Shown in pieces: positions 1-47,241 of a stretch of 47,241 bases of DNA. The notes under the pieces are model-generated. The model was not told the DNA's origin. It worked only from the letters and a program-made list of their open reading frames with translations, and did no database searches. A program made the position numbers and the translations under genes. Location of the stretch: IMG/VR virus record IMGVR_UViG_3300020020_000055, positions 1 to 47,241 of that record; one strand, written 5' to 3'. Source of the stretch: a virus. How positions within the stretch are numbered: position 1 is the stretch's first letter; each line of letters begins with the position of its first letter.

Positions 1-1367
1 TTGATGTCCTGCTTAGTCGGTACGACGCCCATGCGGCGGTCGAGCTCCAATTTGGCCTCGGCCGACAATCGCGGACCGACGACGTTGGATGCGTCGGGCA
101 TGGTTGGTGTCGCGCCCGTGGCCGCGAGTGCGGCCGATGCGGTCGCGCCCGTGAGTGCGCGCGGCAACGTAGCGACCAAGTGTTTGACCGTTGCGATCGG
201 GCAACTCGGATCACTCAGTGTCGCGACTAGATCGCGGTCGAAGTCTGGTCGGCTCGCGAGCAATCGCCCGCGCTCGTCGGCCGCCTTGGCGCGCTGAGAC
301 TCGACGCGCATGCGGTGCACCTCGGCTTGTGCCGATGCGGCCATTTTCATCGCGCGCGATGCGATGGCTTTGGCGTCATCTTTTGACGCGTCGTCGGCGG
401 GCTCGTCGTCGGGCGTCGCCGCGTCGGGCTCGTCGTCGGGCGTCGCCGCGTCGGGCTCGTCAGACTTATCGAACGCGGCGAGTGCGGCGGCCGCGCGCTT
501 AGCGTCGGGCCCGTCGCCCGAGGCTAGTTTTTGAAGCGCCTTACGCGCCTCTTCTTTATCATCCATTACAGGACCCGATTTGATTAGAGTAATTAGTGCG
601 TCTAGCGACATGATTGAATCGGCTAGACCAGCGCTCACGGCGTCGACGCCATGAAACACACCCGCGTCTAACGCTTTTGCGTCGACGCCTCGGCGCTCTT
701 TTACGAGGCCAAAAAACACACCCGCGAGCGAATCGACTAAGCGTTGTGACGCAATCGACTCGGGCTCGGTAAGCGGCGCGTCTGCATACCCATCGGCTTT
801 ACGCGCGCCCGACGCAAAGTATGTGATCGCGACGCCGGCCGCGGCGGTCGCTTTCGACGTGTCGGTACGCGTCGCAATTATGCCAATTGAGCCAACTATG
901 CCCGACTCACTAAGTATGATTCGGTCGGCGGCGCATGCGAGCGCGTACCCGGCCGAGTTGGCCCGGTCTAACACCCATGCATAAACCGGCTTGCCCGCGA
1001 GTTGACAGATCGCGCGGATCTTACGCGACGCCTCGATACACCCGGCCGCGTCGCCGCCCGGCGTCGATAGCTCCAACACGACCGCGCATGCTTCCGAGAA
1101 ACATGCGGCCGCAACCCGCCCGATGATTTCCTCATACGAGTCGTCAACCGCGCCCGCCCGTTGGGTGAGCGGGCCCGCGATAGATACGATTGCGACGCCG
1201 TCGTATTCGTAGGTTGGGCGGATCGACTTACGTGCGGGTACGAGCTCGCCGATTGCTCGGGTGTCGATTGCGTATGCATGGCCCGCTTGAAGCTCAAGCT
1301 TGCGTGTCTCGACGGGCGCGTGCGTGCGGCCAATGACCTCACCGCGTGAGTTGATTAGGTCGGTCAT
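1..1367 (-). CDS. S49-family head maturation protease (5' part; wraps across contig ends)
   Basis: This is a prohead protease of the SppA/lambda C type, expected to cleave scaffold and head proteins during capsid maturation. The gene starts at ATG 1365-1367, overlapping the portal stop as ATGA. It runs off the left end and, through the 126-bp repeat, finishes at 47042, giving 476 aa in one frame. Residues 98-105 carry the ELSTPGGD motif. The catalytic serine is S137 in ANSAGYALACAADRI, and the likely lysine is K189 in SGARKADG, 52 residues later, the spacing known for bacterial SppA. After about residue 260 the sequence turns acidic and repetitive (DEPDAATPD repeats) and then helical, consistent with a fused scaffold region. 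The order portal, protease, decoration protein, capsid supports the role. Confidence 0.88.
   Translation of the reverse strand, partial: MTDLINSRGEVIGRTHAPVETRKLELQAGHAYAIDTRAIGELVPARKSIRPTYEYDGVAIVSIAGPLTQRAGAVDDSYEEIIGRVAAACFSEACAVVLELSTPGGDAAGCIEASRKIRAICQLAGKPVYAWVLDRANSAGYALACAADRIILSESGIVGSIGIIATRTDTSKATAAAGVAITYFASGARKADGYADAPLTEPESIASQRLVDSLAGVFFGLVKERRGVDAKALDAGVFHGVDAVSAGLADSIMSLDALITLIKSGPVMDDKEEARKALQKLASGDGPDAKRAAAALAAFDKSDEPDAATPDDEPDAATPDDEPADDASKDDAKAIASRAMKMAASAQAEVHRMRVESQRAKAADERGRLLASRPDFDRDLVATLSDPSCPIATVKHLVATLPRALTGATASAALAATGATPTMPDASNVVGPRLSAEAKLELDRRMGVVPTKQDI
11..136. repeat. Terminal direct repeat, left copy
   Basis: These 126 bases recur exactly at 47116-47241. 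Overlaying the two copies joins the open left and right ends of the head protease gene in frame, so the contig is circular or circularly permuted. Bases 1-10 differ from the sequence preceding the right copy, so they are either a minor variant or an assembly tail. A 126-bp overlap is also what a long-k-mer assembler leaves on a circular sequence, so it should not be read as a physical terminal repeat. Confidence 0.9.
400..462. repeat. 27-bp tandem repeat, 2.3 copies, in the protease gene
   Basis: A 27-bp unit starting at 400 is repeated at 427 and partly at 454. It encodes repeats of DEPDAATPD in the acidic linker between the protease domain and the C-terminal region. Such units can change copy number by slippage without shifting the frame. 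Confidence 0.85.
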
Positions 1368-3055
1368 GCTGCAACCTCGTCGGGCGCGTCGGGCGCCTCG
1401 GGTGCGGGTGGTGCGGCCGCGCGGTCGGGTGGCTCGGCCGACGCGGGCACAAACCCGCGGCCAATCGTTCCCAACAACGCATCGGCTTGCGGCTCGGTGA
1501 GCAAAAAGGCGACCTTGAGTGTTTCGATCGCCGTTTCACGCGGTATGCGACCCGCGGCCGCCCGCTCGACGACGTCGAGCATTCCGGTCACTTGGGCGCC
1601 ATTCAGCGCCGTGTCGGCGACAGGCTTGCCGCCCGCAATGGCCGCGTCGGTCGCGTTGGCTGCGACGCCGTCGCCCGAATCGGCGCCGCCCTTGACGAGG
1701 CGCAGGCTTGGTTTGGTGCCCGTGCCCGTGTTGGCGCCCGACGTGTCGACGTACGCGTCGGCCTCGACGAGCGGGATCGCAAAGTGTTCGCACAACCGCA
1801 CCACGTCGAGCTCCAGGCCGGCCGAGGCGAGTGCGGTTGTTAGACCCGAGATTGCATTGCCGACCGTGACCATCGAGGTCGCCTCGGCGTTGCGATCCTT
1901 GGGCGGTGTTACGTCATATTCCATGACGCACGGCCGCGAGTCGATCGCCTCGACGCCGTACCGACGCGCAATAAAGATCGGGAGGATCTGAGTATTGATC
2001 GTGTACGCGAGCGAGTCGGCCGTTTCCTTGATGAGGTCGGCGCGAATCGTCTTATGGATATCCGAATTTTGAAAACCCGCGCCGCCGTCGACGGTGACCG
2101 TTTGACCGGCAATGCTTATGATGCATTCGGTGTTTTGGTCGGCAATAGTCTTGACAAAACAGTCATATCCACGACCATTTGATTCAACTAGTTTTACGTC
2201 ATAGCCCGGCGTCATACCAAATACGGTATTGACACCCCAAGCCATGACAGCCTGAAACCATGAATCCTTTTGTTGCTCCGACGCGCCTTGTGGTGCGACG
2301 GCAACGCGTGCGGGATTGGCTAACTTTGCCTCCCACAAATCTTTATGCCAATTCGCATGATCCTTGCGGATATATGCGCGGCCGATCGCACGCCATAAAC
2401 TCGACTGCCAAGGCGCAATGCGACCACCCGGCGTGTGCAATACCCAACGGCCGTCGCCCGGCGTTATCTTGAGCCGACCAACCGCGCTCAAATAATACCA
2501 TTGGTTTTCAGACCAAACGTATTGCAGGTATTGCGGATCGTATCGGCACAAAACGGGATAGTCGCGGCCGGGTACGGGTAGCAATTCGCCAACACCGACA
2601 CCCATCAGCAACCCATCGGCGGCTAGCAAGGCTAGTTCCGACGGCGGGCACATTTCATCGAACACCGAGCGCACCGAGTCGTTACCCAACTCTAGTGATT
2701 TGACGATCTCGGGATCGCCTCGAAAGCGCCGCGGCAAGCGTACGAGCCCGCCCGTGCGAGTCGAAAGCACGCCCGAGATCACACCGTCGCGTCGAGCGGC
2801 GGCCATGAGTCGACCAGCCAACCGCAAGTCGCCCGAGTCGGCGTTATGCTCGGCCGTGTCGAGGTCGTCTAGATACCATTTAGTTTGCGAGTACGACGGT
2901 AGTTGAATCTGGCCGCCGAGCAATTTCCGTAACCTGACAACTAACGAGTCGTCGAGGTCGGTACCCTCGGGCACTGTTATCGCGGGCTCGGCTTGATAGG
3001 TACTAATACCTAGCAGCCGACCGACAATTGATTGCAGTGCGTTTGCTTTCGCCAC
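1364..3055 (-). CDS. Portal protein, DUF935 (Mu gp29-like) type
   Basis: Predicted portal that forms the dodecameric DNA channel at the head vertex and docks the terminase. The length of about 563 aa, the place between terminase and protease, and the central region with WHKDLWEAKLANPARVAV fit the DUF935 portal family of Mu-like heads. The last 60 residues are rich in Ala, Pro and Asp. I prefer the GTG at 3055, which gives MAKANALQ; an in-frame TTG at 3067 is the alternative, and neither has a clear Shine-Dalgarno. The stop TGA overlaps the protease ATG, so the two are translationally coupled. The family call rests on remembered pattern and context. Confidence 0.8.
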   Translation of the reverse strand: MAKANALQSIVGRLLGISTYQAEPAITVPEGTDLDDSLVVRLRKLLGGQIQLPSYSQTKWYLDDLDTAEHNADSGDLRLAGRLMAAARRDGVISGVLSTRTGGLVRLPRRFRGDPEIVKSLELGNDSVRSVFDEMCPPSELALLAADGLLMGVGVGELLPVPGRDYPVLCRYDPQYLQYVWSENQWYYLSAVGRLKITPGDGRWVLHTPGGRIAPWQSSLWRAIGRAYIRKDHANWHKDLWEAKLANPARVAVAPQGASEQQKDSWFQAVMAWGVNTVFGMTPGYDVKLVESNGRGYDCFVKTIADQNTECIISIAGQTVTVDGGAGFQNSDIHKTIRADLIKETADSLAYTINTQILPIFIARRYGVEAIDSRPCVMEYDVTPPKDRNAEATSMVTVGNAISGLTTALASAGLELDVVRLCEHFAIPLVEADAYVDTSGANTGTGTKPSLRLVKGGADSGDGVAANATDAAIAGGKPVADTALNGAQVTGMLDVVERAAAGRIPRETAIETLKVAFLLTEPQADALLGTIGRGFVPASAEPPDRAAAPPAPEAPDAPDEVAA

Positions 3056-16284: not shown

Positions 16285-16854
16285 TTAGGCGACCGCCTTT
16301 CGACCGCGCGTCGTCGTCGCGGCGGCGACCGCGGGCACGGGCGGGCGGTAGTCATCTGGGATATCGACCGAGCGACGACCGCGTCGACGAGCGGGCTCGA
16401 CGGGTGCGGCGGGCGCGGGCGCGACCGTCTTGGGTGCACGCTTGGGCTTGGGCGTCGCGGGCGTCGCGGGCGCCGCGGGCGCGGGTGCGACGGCCGCCTT
16501 GGGCTTGGGCGCGGCCGCGGGCTCGGCGCGTTTGGCTCGGCGTGCCGCGGCGCTGGTCGGCGGCACGGCGGCGACGACCGCGGCCGCAACCGATCCGTCG
16601 CGACGGAAGCGGCGATCCGGGTACGCCGGCGTTTGCTCGGGTAGCTTGCCGCATACCTCGTCGAGCGATACGACGAGCTCGGGCCGACCGCCCGCGAGCG
16701 CCAACGTTTCGGCAACAATCTTTTTACCGATATCGTACGACGCACGTGACCGACGACGCGCGATATTGCTTAGGGTTGCATATTCGATTTTCCACCGGCG
16801 CGCCCATGACGCCATTGGGAAACCCGATTGCTCAATCCACGAATATAGATCCAT
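16285..16854 (-). CDS. Cro-like HTH regulator with Lys/Ala/Pro tail
   Basis: First gene of the leftward operon. The 189-aa protein has an N-terminal HTH (WARRWKIEYATLSNIARRRS, about residues 18-37) and a tail from about residue 95 rich in Lys, Ala and Pro, probably disordered and DNA-loving. I chose ATG 16852-16854 over an upstream TTG at 16872. A 16-bp inverted repeat lies 12 bp upstream. Facing a CI-like repressor gene, it holds the place of Cro in a lambda-type switch. Confidence 0.72.
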   Translation of the reverse strand: MDLYSWIEQSGFPMASWARRWKIEYATLSNIARRRSRASYDIGKKIVAETLALAGGRPELVVSLDEVCGKLPEQTPAYPDRRFRRDGSVAAAVVAAVPPTSAAARRAKRAEPAAAPKPKAAVAPAPAAPATPATPKPKRAPKTVAPAPAAPVEPARRRGRRSVDIPDDYRPPVPAVAAATTTRGRKAVA

Positions 16855-16865
16855 GGTTTCGCGCA

Positions 16866-16886
16866 ATAACAAGTTTGTTATATAAC
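16866..16886. promoter_or_regulatory. Operator region of the divergent switch
   Basis: ATAACAA and TTGTTAT are separated by GT (16866-16881), a 7-bp inverted repeat with 2-bp spacer. It overlaps GTTATATAAC (16877-16886), a 10-bp perfect palindrome also present at 11057-11066. The sites lie between the divergent Cro-like (minus) and CI-like (plus) genes, where repressor operators are expected. Confidence 0.65.
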
Positions 16887-16943
16887 GTCAACGTTTCGCC
16901 ATTGACTCGCGCGCGGGTACATGTTCACATTCGCATTGCAACT

Positions 16944-17611
16944 ATGACCAAATCTGAGCCGCCTGCAGTACACGGCGACGTCGACGTTACAAATCCGCTT
17001 GATGAGCCCACGCTCAATCGTCGGTTACGCGCTATGTATCTTGCGCAAGGCTTTACGCGTCGGTATTCGCCGACGCTATGGGCGTGCATTACGTGCAAGT
17101 CGCACGTTGGGACTCGGGTCAACACGACATATCGACGCCGCATTTAGTGACCGCGTGTAGCGTGCTGGATTGCACGGCCGATTCGCTATTGTTTGGCCAT
17201 ACGAGGCGCCCTACCGAGCCCGCCGCCGCATATGGCGACGCCGGCATACGCTCGACGCTGGCCGCGCTCGGCGCGACACCCGAGGTGCGTGCGGCGCTTG
17301 GCGAGCACCTCGAATCAAAAGACGGGCGGTTGCAAGAAGTGACCCGCGTATACGTCGAGCGTTGGGTACGCACGTACGTCAACGAACGGGCGCGTGGTAC
17401 CGATCGTCGGCGAGCTATCGAGTTAGCCTATCAAGAGGCGATTCAAGGCGACGCGACCGTTTCAACGGTCGCGGCCGGCGTCAACATAGTCACCGCCGCG
17501 CCGCCGACGCCGACTCGACGTAAGCCGCAACCACGCGCGCGTAAGCGCCTAGACCGAACGATCGGCGGCGTGGTCGTACCGTCGTCGCCGCCGCCTCGCG
17601 GCCGCAAGTAA
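16944..17611 (+). pseudogene. CI-like repressor, frameshifted within its HTH
   Basis: Candidate lysogeny repressor, divergent from the Cro-like gene. The frame from ATG 16944 gives a normal XRE start (LNRRLRAMYLAQGF), but after TTT at 17052-17054 it goes out of register. In the neighbouring frame the HTH continues as YASVFADAMGVHYVQVARWD and runs through a 160-residue C-terminal region to 17611. One extra T in the TTT run would restore a continuous HTH of normal spacing. So either a base is deleted in this genome or variant, or the read is wrong, or the ribosome shifts -1. A shorter product could start at ATG 17078 but lacks most of the HTH. The tail is Pro/Arg-rich. Confidence 0.7.
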
Positions 17612-17837
17612 CCGCGGCCATAATCGAGGCGCCGCACGTGCGCACCGCAAGCCTGACGACCTCGGCCGCCGAGGCGTCGGGCCCGAGCAAGTGCCGCGCG
17701 CAACCGATCGCTATATCGCGCGGCGTCTCGTATCTAACGACGCCCGCATAACAATACGTGTACCGCGCCTCGGGCTCGCCCGCGTCGGCCGGCAATAGGT
17801 ACAACTGTAATGTAACAGCCCAGTGTTGCGGCGTCAT
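17490..17837 (-). CDS. Hypothetical protein overlapping the repressor tail
   Basis: A 115-aa frame whose first 75 residues look like a real folded protein (WAVTLQLYLLPADAGEPEAR, then ETPRDIAIGCARHLLGP). The last 40 residues, antisense to the repressor's Pro/Arg-rich tail, are low in complexity. If real, the two genes overlap tail-to-tail by 122 bp. No clear Shine-Dalgarno. Function unknown. Confidence 0.45.
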   Translation of the reverse strand: MTPQHWAVTLQLYLLPADAGEPEARYTYCYAGVVRYETPRDIAIGCARHLLGPDASAAEVVRLAVRTCGASIMAAVTCGREAAATTVRPRRRSFGLGAYARVVAAYVESASAARR

Positions 17838-17969
17838 GAGGTGAGTTCATGACATTACACGCGCGTGACACGCAATAGCTGCGCGCTCCCAAGTCAAATT
17901 TGAGTGTGCTCGTGTGTGCGGCCGGCAATTCACTTGCGTCGCACGCAACAAAAACGTTATACGACGCGA
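17838..17969. promoter_or_regulatory. Divergent intergenic region before the recombination genes
   Basis: A 132-bp gap between the minus-strand 17837 gene and the nuclease starting at 17970. It holds short palindromes, including TTGCGT-cgc-ACGCAA near 17936-17950, CACGCGCGTG near 17860 and CAAATTTG near 17896. A promoter for the rightward operon is expected here, but I cannot pick a convincing -35/-10 pair. Confidence 0.4.
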
Positions 17970-19067: not shown

Positions 19068-19860
19068 TAGCGCGCTTGCGGCACTATACGGCGACTCGGA
19101 TGTAAACGACGGCTATTCACAAGCCATCGGTACCGACAAAATCAAATTGCCTCGGTACGTATTCAATAAACAAGGCCTCGACGAATCGGGTACGCCGTTC
19201 CGTAAAGACTGGTTTTACAACTCGGCAACGCAAATCCAAGTGCCAACCATCGAGGCCGTGTTGTTGTACGTGCATGGTTGGCGTGCGTGGTCGGAATATG
19301 ACGACGCCGAAAAGAAAACCAATATGATTTGCGTGTCAAACGATTGTCAGTCGGGCGTCATGCGGCACGGCGACGGCGGCGAGGAAACCCGACGCTGCAG
19401 AGGTTGCAAAGATTACGATTGGCAACGCACCGCCAAAAATAAAGCCTTTCGCAATTGCTCCGATCGCTACACGGTGTTGGCGCTCGACCTCGCGACTAAC
19501 GAGCCGTTCGTAATGGGATTCAAGAAAACGAGCGAGCCCGCTATCGTCCAACACGTCAACAAATATCATACTAACAAGCGCGAACTGTCTAACGGGCGCA
19601 AGGTCAACAAGCCGCTTTGTTGGCACACGGTCAATATGCGGTTGGTTATGGATAAATCGGGCAACTTTGCCGTGCCCGTGATCACGCTGCGCATGACCAG
19701 CGTAATCAACAAACTCGGCCAATCGGTCGCCGAGCCCAAACTCAACCCGCCCGAGCTCGTCGAGCCATGCTTGGAAACCGTAAAGGTGTTGCGCCAAGTA
19801 ATCACCCATGAGGTCGACGACGAGGATACGTCGTTTGACACCGCGGATTTTGCAACATGA
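19027..19860 (+). CDS. Probable ssDNA-binding or recombination accessory protein
   Basis: A 277-aa protein. The start is certain: AGGAGG at 19013-19018 lies 8 nt before ATG 19027. It contains IKLPRYVFNKQGLDESGTPF, a central four- or five-cysteine segment (CVSND to NCSDRYTVLAL) that may bind zinc, beta-rich segments (WHTVNMRLVMDKSGNFAV), and an acidic C-terminal tail (EVDDEDTSFDTADF). Acidic tails are typical of ssDNA-binding proteins. Its place between a Cas4-like nuclease and RecD2 parts supports an SSB or annealing role. The family is not certain. Confidence 0.55.
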   Translation: MTTESTALAAAQDDSALAALYGDSDVNDGYSQAIGTDKIKLPRYVFNKQGLDESGTPFRKDWFYNSATQIQVPTIEAVLLYVHGWRAWSEYDDAEKKTNMICVSNDCQSGVMRHGDGGEETRRCRGCKDYDWQRTAKNKAFRNCSDRYTVLALDLATNEPFVMGFKKTSEPAIVQHVNKYHTNKRELSNGRKVNKPLCWHTVNMRLVMDKSGNFAVPVITLRMTSVINKLGQSVAEPKLNPPELVEPCLETVKVLRQVITHEVDDEDTSFDTADFAT

Positions 19861-20765
19861 CGCCCGCGGCCGCGACCGCGACGACCATACGCGGTGAGCT
19901 CGCCTCATGGCGACAACACGGCGACTCGGGTTGGGGCGTTGGAGTGGTACGCGGCGCCGACGGCTCGACTACGTCAATCGTGGGCGTAGTCGTCGGCGCC
20001 CGCGAGGGCGATGCCATCGAAGCAACTGGCCGCCTCCGACGCGATCCCAAATGGGGCGAGCAACTCAAGGTCGAGTCGGCGACGATTGCGCCGCCCGTGT
20101 CGATCGACGGTGCGATCGCGTGGTTGGTCGCGACCATGCCCAACATCGGCGAGATCCGTGCGCGGCGGCTCGTCGAACACTTTGGCGGCGTCGACGCGCT
20201 TTGGGTGGCCATCGAGTCGGCGCCCGGCAAGCTAGCGTTGGTCGAGGGCATATCGTCGGCTCGGGCGCTCGAGATCCAAGCGGCATACCGTGCGGCTCGG
20301 GCCGACCGCGAGCACCAAATTACGTTGCGCGGGTGGGGCTTGACGTCGGCGCAAATCGGTCGGTGTTTGACCGAGTGGTTGACGGCCGAGCACGCGGTCG
20401 AGCGGATCCGCGCCGACCCGTACGAGCTATTTAGGAAGGTACACGGGTTTGGCTGGTCGCGTGCCGACGCGGTCGCTCGCAAATCCGGCATTGCACGCGA
20501 CGCGCCGCAACGCATCGCGGCGGGTATCGAGTACGTACTCGACGAGCACTCAAACGACGGGCACGTATCCATGCGGCCGCGGGTGTTTCAAGCCGAGGTC
20601 GAGCGCGTACTCGGCGCGGGTCGCGACGCGGTCATGGTCGGTATCCGTACCGCGGTCGCGCGCGGTGTAATCGTCAAGCGCGGCGCCCGTATTTATTCGC
20701 GCCGACTCGAAACGTTGGAGTCGGCCGTGTATCGCGGGCTCGCCGAGCGGGTGGTGCCGCGGTGA
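19857..20765 (+). CDS. RecD2 N-terminal half (OB and helix-hairpin-helix domains), separate gene
   Basis: A 302-aa protein equal to the non-ATPase N-terminal part of RecD2 helicases. An OB-like strand region comes first (IRGELASWRQHGDSGWGVGV), then PNIGEIRARRLVEHFG, then a helix-hairpin-helix part with RADPYELFRKVHGFGWSRAD and a tail with DEHSNDGHVSMRPR. It ends at ERVVPR, exactly where RecD2 would continue into its Walker A domain. That domain is a separate gene at 22848. Both ends are coupled by 4-nt overlaps, so this is a maintained gene, not a fragment. It may bind and position DNA for the helicase subunit. Confidence 0.85.
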   Translation: MTPAAATATTIRGELASWRQHGDSGWGVGVVRGADGSTTSIVGVVVGAREGDAIEATGRLRRDPKWGEQLKVESATIAPPVSIDGAIAWLVATMPNIGEIRARRLVEHFGGVDALWVAIESAPGKLALVEGISSARALEIQAAYRAARADREHQITLRGWGLTSAQIGRCLTEWLTAEHAVERIRADPYELFRKVHGFGWSRADAVARKSGIARDAPQRIAAGIEYVLDEHSNDGHVSMRPRVFQAEVERVLGAGRDAVMVGIRTAVARGVIVKRGARIYSRRLETLESAVYRGLAERVVPR

Positions 20766-22458: not shown

Positions 22459-22851
22459 ATGCTCGACGACGTTTGGGCCGAGTTTGGGCTAGCGCATGCG
22501 CGGCTAGTTACAGACGCCAAGGGTGTTTACGCGGTCGAGGGCGCGGGCATGATAAAGATAGGTAAGGCGGTTAGCTTTGGGCGACGACTGCATGACCTGC
22601 AATCGCTTAGCCCGGTGCAACTAAATTTAGTTGCATGCCTATCTGACAAATGTTCCGACGAGCTCAAGTTTCATCACCGATGGAAGCATTTGCGCGCTCA
22701 CGGTGAGTGGTTTCGTTTTGATCCTGAACTCGCCCGATGGTTGGTCAAATGTCAACGGTCTGGCGAATATAACAATGGCATCGAGTATCCATGGGATCCC
22801 GAGGACGATTATCTAAATTGGTTAGATGAGATAGGAGCGACCGAACAATGA
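22459..22851 (+). CDS. GIY-YIG-like (T5orf172/MUG113 type) protein
   Basis: A 130-aa protein matching the T5orf172/MUG113 branch of the GIY-YIG nuclease superfamily: GVYAVEGAGMIKIGKA, then FGRRLHDLQSLSPVQLNLVA, then a Glu in DELKFHHRWKHLRAHGEWF. It ends in an overlap with the RecD2 helicase half. It may be a DNA nuclease; homing-type nucleases of this superfamily are known to invade phage genes. No zinc or extra DNA-binding domain is visible. Confidence 0.72.
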   Translation: MLDDVWAEFGLAHARLVTDAKGVYAVEGAGMIKIGKAVSFGRRLHDLQSLSPVQLNLVACLSDKCSDELKFHHRWKHLRAHGEWFRFDPELARWLVKCQRSGEYNNGIEYPWDPEDDYLNWLDEIGATEQ

Positions 22852-24068
22852 CCACCACGCTCGACCCATCGCAAGCCGCCGCCGTCGAGGTCATGGTACG
22901 CGCCCGCTTTGGGTGCGTAACGGGCCCGCCCGGATCCGGTAAAACAACCACGCTCGGCGCGGCGCTCGCTCGCCTCGACGCCGACGGGCTCGACCGCCGC
23001 GCGATACGACTCGCGGCGCCGACGGGTAAAGCGGCGCGGCGCATGGCGCAAGCCACCGGCCGCGACGCCTCGACCATTCATCGGTTGTTAGGTTGGACTC
23101 GTCGCGGTTGGACGTACGACGCGGCCAACCCGCTCGACGCCGAGTGCGTGTACGTCGACGAGGCGTCCATGATTGACTATGAGATCGCGCTTGCGTTGCT
23201 CGATGGCACGCGGCGCTCGCGGTTGGTGTTGATCGGCGACGCCGACCAGCTACCGCCCGTTGGCATCGGCCGCATGTTTGGCGACCTAATCGACGCGGGC
23301 GTTGTGCCCGTCGCTCGGCTACGCACCAACCATCGCGCGGCCGAGGGATCTTGGGTCATTCGCAATGCGCCCGAGGTGTTGACGGGCGGGCCATTGGAGC
23401 TCGAAACGTCGAGCGGGTTTAGGTGGGTAACGGTCGACGACGCGGCCGCAATCCCGAGCGCAGTGCGCGCGGCGGTCGCACTCGCACCCGACCCAACTGC
23501 ATGCGTCGTGCTCGCACCGCAATACGCGGGCGCGGCCGGGTGCGACGCGCTCAACCTAGCGCTCGACGGGTTACTCAACCGCGAGCCGATGTACGTCGGT
23601 ATGCCGACCTTGCCACGGGGCGACGGCAAGCTAGCGATACGTCGCGGCGCGCGTGTAATCCAGACACGTAATAATTACGACCTCGACGTAATGAACGGTG
23701 AGATCGGACTCGTCGAGGATATCGACACGCGCGATCGCAAGGTGGTCGTGTCGTTTGACGAGCTAAAGCGCGTCATCACATACGAGGGCGACGACTCGTA
23801 CGCGCTCCAACCCGCGTACGCGCTCACGGTACACAAAACCCAAGGCTCGGAATTTCCGCGCGTGATAGTCGTATGTCACTCGACCAACACGCACATGCTT
23901 AGCCGCTCGATATTGTACACAGCAATCACGCGCGCCAAGCAACACGTAACGCTAATCGGCGACGAGCGCGGGCTCGCCCGAGCACTCAAAACCGACGCGG
24001 CACGGCGTCAAACGTCGCTCGTCGAGCGGTTGGGCGGCACGCTCGACGAGGTCGAGGCGTCGATATGA
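22848..24068 (+). CDS. RecD2-type SF1B helicase core, separate gene
   Basis: A 406-aa 5'-3' helicase with all SF1 motifs: I GPPGSGKTTT (residues 26-35), Ia APTGKAARRM, II VYVDEASM, III IGDADQLPPVG, IV LRTNHR, V ALTVHKTQGSEFP, VI LYTAITRAK. It starts directly at the LDPSQAAAVEV segment that in RecD2 follows the OB/HhH region. The missing N-terminal half is the gene at 19857-20765. The ATG overlaps the GIY-YIG-like stop. Likely used in recombination or replication restart, perhaps with the Cas4-like nuclease. Confidence 0.9.
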   Translation: MTTTLDPSQAAAVEVMVRARFGCVTGPPGSGKTTTLGAALARLDADGLDRRAIRLAAPTGKAARRMAQATGRDASTIHRLLGWTRRGWTYDAANPLDAECVYVDEASMIDYEIALALLDGTRRSRLVLIGDADQLPPVGIGRMFGDLIDAGVVPVARLRTNHRAAEGSWVIRNAPEVLTGGPLELETSSGFRWVTVDDAAAIPSAVRAAVALAPDPTACVVLAPQYAGAAGCDALNLALDGLLNREPMYVGMPTLPRGDGKLAIRRGARVIQTRNNYDLDVMNGEIGLVEDIDTRDRKVVVSFDELKRVITYEGDDSYALQPAYALTVHKTQGSEFPRVIVVCHSTNTHMLSRSILYTAITRAKQHVTLIGDERGLARALKTDAARRQTSLVERLGGTLDEVEASI

Positions 24069-26130: not shown

Positions 26131-27561
26131 CTATTGTAACACCTGTTCAGATTTGCCCATATTTATGATGTTTGCTCCGATGGCTAAATACTTGGCGGCT
26201 TTACTTGGCTTTACCGTGCGGGCGGCACGGGTGGCTTTGGGCGGGTGTTTCCGAGGTCGGCCGGTCTTGCGCGGCGCGTCGGGTGGCATGGCGACGCCGG
26301 CCGCGAGCTCGGGTATTGCCTCCATAAGCGGCGTGAGTGAGGTAAACCCGGCCTCGCGGTACAGGTCGGCGTCGCGGTTGTACACTCGGATCATTCGCTC
26401 CGACTTGTGACCCGTTCGTTGGCGTATGTGCGAGTCGGGCTTACCCGCGGCCAGCGCAATGGTCACCATAAGCGCGCGTAAGTCGTGCGCCCGCACTTGG
26501 CCATTGTCGTCGTCGTGCACCCACAACTCGGGCCGACGCTCGCACACGCCCGCGAGTTTGAGACATGTGCGGTACCATCGCGCTTGTACCTTCATGCCGT
26601 GCGTGGGTCGGAACATGGGCGCGTCATTGGGCGGGTTGCCGCACGCGACCCGATACGCGCGCAACGCGTCGGCGGTTTCGGCCGACAGCATCCACTTGGT
26701 GTATTGCTTGGTTTTGAACATATACACGGTGAGGATGTTGGACGTCGGCGACAATGCCGACCATTTGAGCGCGGCGAGCTCGTTTACCCGCGTCCCCTCA
26801 CGTGCGAGGAAACCAAACCACATGCGGTCGTGCGGCGACACGGCCGTGCACCGCATGAGGTCGAGGTCGTCTTGCGGTTCGAGCGCGGCATGTGCGCGGC
26901 CGACCGCCTCGGGTCGGTCATGTTTGGTGATGGGTGAGCGCTCAATCAATTTCAACGGCTCGGCGGCCAGTGACACCACGCGCCGCGCAATGTCCCACAA
27001 GTTGACCGCCGTCGTCGCACGCATATGTTTGCACGCGCCGTCGTACACCTCGCCGAGGTGCGCCGCGGTGACTTGGTCGATGGGTATGTGACCGATCAAC
27101 GGAAACACGTACGTCGTCAGTTTGCCGCGCGCTTGGTCGACGCCGTGCGACGATCGCATTTCAATACCTTTGTGTTTGCGGGCGATCTCGCCCGATAGCC
27201 ATTGTTCGGCGACCTCGGCGTACGTATGCGGCCGATCGCGACGCGCCGCCTTGACGACCAATTGGCGCGACACGACGAGCTCCCAATAACGGTCGAGCTG
27301 GTCGACGGTGCGGCACTCGCCCGCCTTGAGCGTCGCCCCGTCGAGCGCGTCGCGTACCTCGGTGCGGCTCAACTGGCCGCCTTGAAACAACTCGCGGGCA
27401 TGCGTAATGACGTGGTGAGCGAGGCGGTCGCAAACGCCCGCGTCGTCAATCGGTCGGTGCAAACGGATTGACACCCGCGGCACGCCCGACTTGAGCGTTA
27501 TCCGCGCGATTGCCATGCCGTTTCGATCGGTCGCCAGTAATCCCGAGGCCGGTCTACCCAT
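26131..27561 (-). CDS. int: Tyrosine integrase
   Basis: A 476-aa site-specific recombinase for integration into and excision from the host chromosome. The catalytic set is visible: Arg in AREGTRVNELAALKW, Lys in the KTKQYTKW hairpin, HDLR box in VRAHDLRALMV, second His in RTGHKSERM, and the Tyr nucleophile in IRVYNRDADLY. The N-terminal 200 residues hold arm- and core-binding domains. The C-terminus past the Tyr is unusually long and basic, with GRPRKHPPKA, an AT-hook-like motif. I start at ATG 27559-27561, which has GGAG 11 nt upstream; the ATG at 27603 has none. Its presence marks the phage as temperate or of temperate descent. Confidence 0.92.
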   Translation of the reverse strand: MGRPASGLLATDRNGMAIARITLKSGVPRVSIRLHRPIDDAGVCDRLAHHVITHARELFQGGQLSRTEVRDALDGATLKAGECRTVDQLDRYWELVVSRQLVVKAARRDRPHTYAEVAEQWLSGEIARKHKGIEMRSSHGVDQARGKLTTYVFPLIGHIPIDQVTAAHLGEVYDGACKHMRATTAVNLWDIARRVVSLAAEPLKLIERSPITKHDRPEAVGRAHAALEPQDDLDLMRCTAVSPHDRMWFGFLAREGTRVNELAALKWSALSPTSNILTVYMFKTKQYTKWMLSAETADALRAYRVACGNPPNDAPMFRPTHGMKVQARWYRTCLKLAGVCERRPELWVHDDDNGQVRAHDLRALMVTIALAAGKPDSHIRQRTGHKSERMIRVYNRDADLYREAGFTSLTPLMEAIPELAAGVAMPPDAPRKTGRPRKHPPKATRAARTVKPSKAAKYLAIGANIINMGKSEQVLQ

Positions 27562-27711
27562 TGCTTTTGTTACTCCTGCATTGGCTATATTTAGCCATCG
27601 CACTATTTAGCGCTTGCGTGGTGCGCGGGTCAATGTGCGATAACACGTACGTTGCCGATGAAATGACTTACGCGTTACACGTCGGCGGCGTAGTGATTGG
27701 AGGGAATACGT
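27562..27711. promoter_or_regulatory. Divergent promoter region between integrase and HTH gene
   Basis: A 150-bp region between the divergent integrase and HTH/coiled-coil genes. TGGCTA-TATT-TAGCCA at 27582-27597 is a 6-bp inverted repeat with a 4-bp spacer and could be an operator, or an integrase arm or excisionase site. Confidence 0.45.
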
Positions 27712-45560: not shown

Positions 45561-46580
45561 TTAGGCCGCCATGCACTTGAAAAGCAGGAATGGGTGGCCC
45601 GGCAAAATCGCGTTGCGACCTTCCGACGTCCACTGAAATTCCTTGATTCGTGCTAGCTGCGCATCCGTTTGAGGCCCGTAATATAAAACGGTGAATGGCT
45701 CGCGATTGACGTAGCAAAAGGCCCCGAGATCGGACGTCAAAATGTCCTCGCATGCCACGTAGTAAGTCGTATCCGATCCGCCAAACGCCGCACCGAGCTC
45801 GGGCACTTCGACGGGTTGGCCGAGGCCAAAGTTTCGGATCACGGCCTCGACGTCGCCCGAGCCACCACCCGCGGCGGCCGCCTGTGCGATGAATTTGGCG
45901 TTAGTGATTTGCTGCGCACGCGCGGTGAGCGCGGGCGGATGCAAAATCGTGCCGACGCGTAGAAACCGCGGATCGACGCCGTTAGGCATTTTGATATTCG
46001 CTACGCCCGCAATAACCTTGGCGAGGTTATTTACTGCGACGTCGAGCGTCACTGACGCGTCGATAGGTACTGCGCCCGCGCCCGAGCCCGCGGTGTTGAT
46101 ATTTGAGAACGTCGGCCCGCCGATGATAAACGGATTGACAGGGTGAGCGGTCGCAAAAAACGCGAGCCCGTCGTACGTAATCGGGTTGGCAAGGATCGCG
46201 TTTGCGACTGACTTTTGCGGCCAATACGCCGCGTATGCGCCGACGGTACGCGACCAATGCGTTGCAAGGTCGACGCCGTTGCCGTCGAGGTCGGTAAACT
46301 GCTCTTTTTTGACCTTGAGACCGGCCGCCGCGTTCAGGTTTTCTACTGACGTAGTAAGCCCGACGATATCGTCGAATCGCACGTTGCCGCCGTGTCCGGT
46401 CGGGCGGATTTGAGCGGTATCGAGCAACCAACTGATTTGCTCTTTTTTCGCGCCGCTCGGAATGGTCTTAGTGATTCGCGTATACCAGAGGTTGCTAAGC
46501 AACCGATCGTAATCGCGCGAGGTAATGAGACGCATGTTTGACTCAAGGTCAAACAGGAAACTAGGTGTAATAGATGCCAT
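45561..46580 (-). CDS. Major capsid protein, Mu gpT-like
   Basis: A 339-aa capsid protein: TPSFLFDLESNMRLITSRDY at the N-terminus, KTIPSGAKKEQISWLLDTAQ, then SRTVGAYAAYWPQKSVANAI, the pattern of Mu-like major head subunits (gpT) with the HK97 fold. Place after the protease and decoration gene and before the connector genes agrees. A stem-loop terminator follows it. Confidence 0.88.
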   Translation of the reverse strand: MASITPSFLFDLESNMRLITSRDYDRLLSNLWYTRITKTIPSGAKKEQISWLLDTAQIRPTGHGGNVRFDDIVGLTTSVENLNAAAGLKVKKEQFTDLDGNGVDLATHWSRTVGAYAAYWPQKSVANAILANPITYDGLAFFATAHPVNPFIIGGPTFSNINTAGSGAGAVPIDASVTLDVAVNNLAKVIAGVANIKMPNGVDPRFLRVGTILHPPALTARAQQITNAKFIAQAAAAGGGSGDVEAVIRNFGLGQPVEVPELGAAFGGSDTTYYVACEDILTSDLGAFCYVNREPFTVLYYGPQTDAQLARIKEFQWTSEGRNAILPGHPFLLFKCMAA

Positions 46581-47041: not shown

Positions 47042-47241
47042 TTACGCCTTAGCCTTTCCGGCGTCGGCCACTGGCACGCCTAGCTGTAGAGTGAACTCGG
47101 TAGACGCGACGCCCGGCTTAGTCGGTACGACGCCCATGCGGCGGTCGAGCTCCAATTTGGCCTCGGCCGACAATCGCGGACCGACGACGTTGGATGCGTC
47201 GGGCATGGTTGGTGTCGCGCCCGTGGCCGCGAGTGCGGCCG
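47042..47241 (-). CDS. Head maturation protease, 3' part
   Basis: C-terminal end of the protease whose start is at 1367. The frame enters from the right edge of the window, continues the sequence of bases 137-11 at the other end, and stops with TAA at 47042-47044 after GVASTEFTLQLGVPVADAGK and a short AKA tail. A fifth of this segment is the 126-bp repeat read once at each end. Confidence 0.88.
   Translation of the reverse strand, partial: AALAATGATPTMPDASNVVGPRLSAEAKLELDRRMGVVPTKPGVASTEFTLQLGVPVADAGKAKA
47116..47241. repeat. Terminal direct repeat, right copy
   Basis: Exact copy of bases 11-136. Here the sequence continues leftward into the natural end of the protease gene, so this copy, not bases 1-10, shows the intact junction. 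Confidence 0.9.

Follow-up and report, generated by a model that had tools for sequence, protein, structure and literature searches.

A repressor-like gene with a frame break inside its helix-turn-helix in an otherwise apparently intact immunity region of a temperate-type phage

The window, i.e. the whole stretch of DNA that was analysed, is a virus record of 47,241 bases containing a repressor-like gene (16944 to 17611, plus strand) that is split over two reading frames. Divergently oriented to this gene lies that of a small regulator with a basic C-terminal tail (16285..16854, minus strand), which is kept in the relatives L002 to L005, as judged by alignment and by a match in L005. A Pfam search with the regulator gave no match; its position and its N-terminus, which resembles a helix-turn-helix (HTH), suggest that it is a Cro-like protein. 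Operator-like TAAC-N6-GTTA sites flank the repressor gene on both sides. The palindrome TAACAAGTTTGTTA(TA) is located between the divergent genes (16867..16882, no strand assigned) and is identical in L005, and a second site, CAACAAAAACGTTATA (17946..17961, no strand assigned), precedes an exonuclease gene. When the looser motif TAAC-N6-GTTATA was searched in the window, an exact match was obtained only between the divergent genes, and the site at 17946 has one mismatch. The L005 record contains just two exact matches to this motif, at the two corresponding places, one of them being the counterpart of the window site at 17946. By eye, the palindrome TAACAAGTTTGTTA lies between TTGACG and TATTGC, spaced 17 bases apart on the minus strand, a placement expected for an operator inside a Cro-side promoter. 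As a strict consensus promoter scan found nothing, this is no more than a hint; a terminator scan gave nothing either. A small gene on the minus strand (17490-17837) is convergent with the repressor gene and covers about 120 bases of its 3' end. Reading frames placed in the same way occur in L002 to L005, with an identity of 51% in L005 and of 19-25% in the others.

The window also encodes a tyrosine integrase (26131..27603, minus strand), of which five relatives likewise have a copy. The integrase frame is open and the catalytic R, HxLR, H and Y could be read by eye, in agreement with the earlier note, according to which this gene looks intact. The arrangement of genes and sites corresponds to a lambda-like immunity region in a temperate-type phage genome, and the remainder of the switch, comprising the Cro-like gene, the operator-like sites and the integrase, looks intact.

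Some observations were made elsewhere in the window. Two genes (19857-20765 and 22848-24068), separated by about 2 kb that hold other reading frames, encode the two parts of a RecD2-type helicase, which cover positions 12-288 and 315-711 of the 713 positions of TIGR01448. Both parts are also present separately in L004, L002 and the record of L005, and in L003, whose locus is cut, the N-terminal part alone was detected. Moreover, the two ends of the window (1-1436 and 47051-47239) match one and the same gene of the L005 record (L016:7328-8815), and the window is therefore probably a complete genome, circular or circularly permuted, that has been cut inside a gene. The protein encoded at 45561-46580 shows weak matches to the major head proteins of Salinibacter phages. 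In viral contigs, 74 loci are related to it, and among named phages just the distant Salinibacter-phage matches were obtained; the protein apparently belongs to a large group that has no cultured member in the named-phage collection searched.

The N-terminal piece of the repressor gene (16944..17147, plus strand) consists of 67 codons and a stop codon, but the homology to the relatives ends at about 17060 and the codons beyond are out of the family frame. The C-terminal piece (17066..17611, plus strand) is encoded in another frame, which is open from 17006 and whose first usable start codon is the ATG at 17078, giving a product of 177 amino acids. When a profile built solely from the relatives was run against 39 records in all six frames, it picked up the window gene in two collinear segments, the first at 16983-17060 (E 1.3e-9, profile positions 9-34) and the second at 17063-17512 (E 7e-44, profile positions 36-189). 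Because two frames match one repressor family collinearly, the frame change in the given sequence is far beyond chance. Furthermore, when both frames were joined in one chain, 71 residues matched 71 profile positions of the repressor family phrog_2328 in the PHROG collection (E 0.00096), a match that was absent with either half alone. Codon usage also follows the two frames: immediately upstream of the site it favours frame 0, and downstream of it mostly frame 2.

The relatives of the gene were not reached by direct searches. A DNA search of phage and plasmid collections with the region 16300-17900, scans for close relatives with the C-terminal piece alone and a search of a genome collection with the repressor alignment all gave no match. 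A search of viral contigs by way of the neighbouring primase gene led to three related phages, in which the repressor gene is unbroken and has the same place and orientation as in the window; their alignment with the two parts of the window gene shows no gap where these parts meet. A search with this alignment added L007 and L005, the latter being close enough for alignment at the DNA level. In all 18 relatives that were found (L002-L005, L007, L133-L136 and L138-L146; L147 with E 0.0025 was left out), the HTH lies in one open frame, and the window holds the sole broken copy. This count includes L140 and L141, which look identical in the repressor gene, the near-identical L143-L145 and the weak match L146. 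For five relatives the profile search reported stops inside the gene, which were rejected as breaks: four were seen to be normal C-terminal ends, and the open 244-amino-acid frame of the fifth, L134, suggests the same. The internal ATG at 17078 was also rejected as the true start, since the upstream half is in frame in 18 of 18 relatives; none of them begins at the corresponding place without this half, the finding that the earlier note had named as one that would speak against a broken gene. Viral contigs were also searched for exact matches to the site with zero to three extra bases, and no second copy of the phage was detected.

The earlier note had proposed that an HTH repressor gene is one base short inside its HTH, which is borne out by the two-frame profile match and the intact relatives, and had placed the missing base at the TTT at 17052-17054. 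The profile of the relatives places it slightly further downstream. When every possible break was scored against a profile of five relatives, the maximum was reached at the codons starting at 17061 (195.6 bits) and 17064 (195.5 bits), compared with 183.5 bits at the TTT (17052) and 189.5 bits at 17055. The DNA alignment with L005 has its one-base gap at the same place as this maximum. In close relatives, GF or GY is followed by T, N or S, then by R, two variable residues and F; the window retains GFTR in the first frame and continues from F onward in the second. Thus, breakpoint scan, DNA alignment and profile pieces place the break, one base fewer than in the relatives, at 17061..17066 (plus strand) in helix 2 of the HTH.

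The sequence around the break also bears on two readings in which the repressor would still be made. Phase variation, as suggested by the earlier note, would toggle the repressor on and off by strand slippage, which typically makes one-base changes. However, no run of at least four identical bases is present between 17000 and 17150, and L005 has no tract at the corresponding place. Programmed -1 frameshifting would join the frames and provide some full repressor; the two frames indeed overlap at 17006-17147, over a length of more than 100 bases, with the downstream one being the -1 frame, but this overlap contains no slippery X XXY YYZ heptamer and the arrangement was seen in no relative. In the absence of a four-base run and of a slippery heptamer, both readings are unsupported. 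We regard phase variation as the least probable of all and programmed frameshifting as hardly more credible; a non-canonical frameshift or recoding event inside the HTH that joins the frames and sets the amount of repressor is just as improbable as the latter.

Concerning the kind of protein, HTH_3 was detected in four of five relatives tested (best E 2.4e-5), and HTH_26 matches also occurred among the relatives. An XRE-type HTH is thus found at the N-terminus, and the divergent Cro-like gene and the operator-like sites would fit the switch region of a Cro/CI-type phage repressor. The profile of the relatives weakly matches the structures of SinR and the P22 C2 repressor (E 0.006-0.01), and the L005 repressor weakly matches DicA. 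The protein shares the N-terminal HTH type with P22 C2, SinR and DicA; however, the resemblance is weak (E 0.0008-0.01), and its C-terminal part cannot be recognised. No match to S24, the LexA-like autocleavage domain, was found in five relatives or in the window piece. The designation as CI-like made in the earlier note can therefore be kept as far as position and HTH are concerned, but the predicted protein is not a CI repressor in the strict sense.

Two readings of the missing base carry most of the weight, and the weights given here are judgements and not measurements. The earlier note had offered both, an error and a loss leading to a clear form, which would be recent because the integrase looks intact, and both are retained here. 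We consider it reasonably probable that a recent natural frameshift has turned the phage into a repressor-null, clear-type phage. The main rival, which we rate as distinctly less probable, is that the base was lost by a sequencing or assembly error and that the phage itself carries a normal, unbroken repressor. Indeed, the source is a single metagenomic contig, the gene is unbroken in every relative and both halves are as well conserved as those of an intact gene would be. However, the site lacks a homopolymer, and consensus indel errors are less usual away from homopolymers. Moreover, a random error would hit the repressor gene in about 1-2% of cases by our own arithmetic (0.67 kb of about 47 kb), and the repressor is one of the few genes that are dispensable for lytic growth. 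A gene-by-gene comparison with the L005 record, in which about 40 shared genes lie in matching single frames, revealed no other credible frame break, although this screen has a low sensitivity to shifts near gene ends and left the bridged repressor shift unflagged. Two places that were flagged were rejected, since they precede the likely starts of the matching genes and fall outside the frames of these genes.

According to the preferred reading, a natural frameshift, a temperate-type phage would have become one base short in its repressor gene, at about 17061-17066. Translation from 16944 would leave the family frame in helix 2 and end at 17147, giving a 67-residue product without the recognition helix. 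In a possible internal product from 17078, helix 1 and the greater part of helix 2 would be missing. As neither product is expected to bind the operators, the phage should be repressor-null, and the gene is interrupted relative to intact relatives, as expected for such a phage. It should fail to establish or keep lysogeny and would be of the clear type, with operators and integrase unspoiled. Any loss would have to be recent, given the good fit to the family that the two halves retain and the codon usage, which follows the two frames.

Comparable cases are known. Early frameshifts in cI are a well-established cause of clear plaques; in the lactococcal phage TP901-1, this is documented for the mutants C9, C25 and C26, whose frameshifts lie within or ahead of the HTH (PMC4892519). 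The window phage resembles them in having a single early frameshift with the other parts of the switch intact, but the TP901-1 mutants were selected in the laboratory after UV treatment and shown to be clear, whereas the window is a metagenomic sequence. Among Cluster A mycobacteriophages, naturally lytic or defense-escape derivatives carry repressor mutations including frameshifts (PMC6550527). Here, too, some members of a temperate group have a broken repressor, but these phages are unrelated to the window phage and their infection phenotype was measured. Since early frameshifts in cI and in repressor genes have already been documented, the window shows either a loss of function of an ordinary kind or a sequence error, and not a new mechanism.

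If the base is truly missing, the window would represent a wild temperate phage just after losing lysogeny, with its operators and integrase intact. Such a phage would be a useful case, albeit unsurprising in kind, and a warning that an integrase alone is insufficient for calling such contigs temperate.
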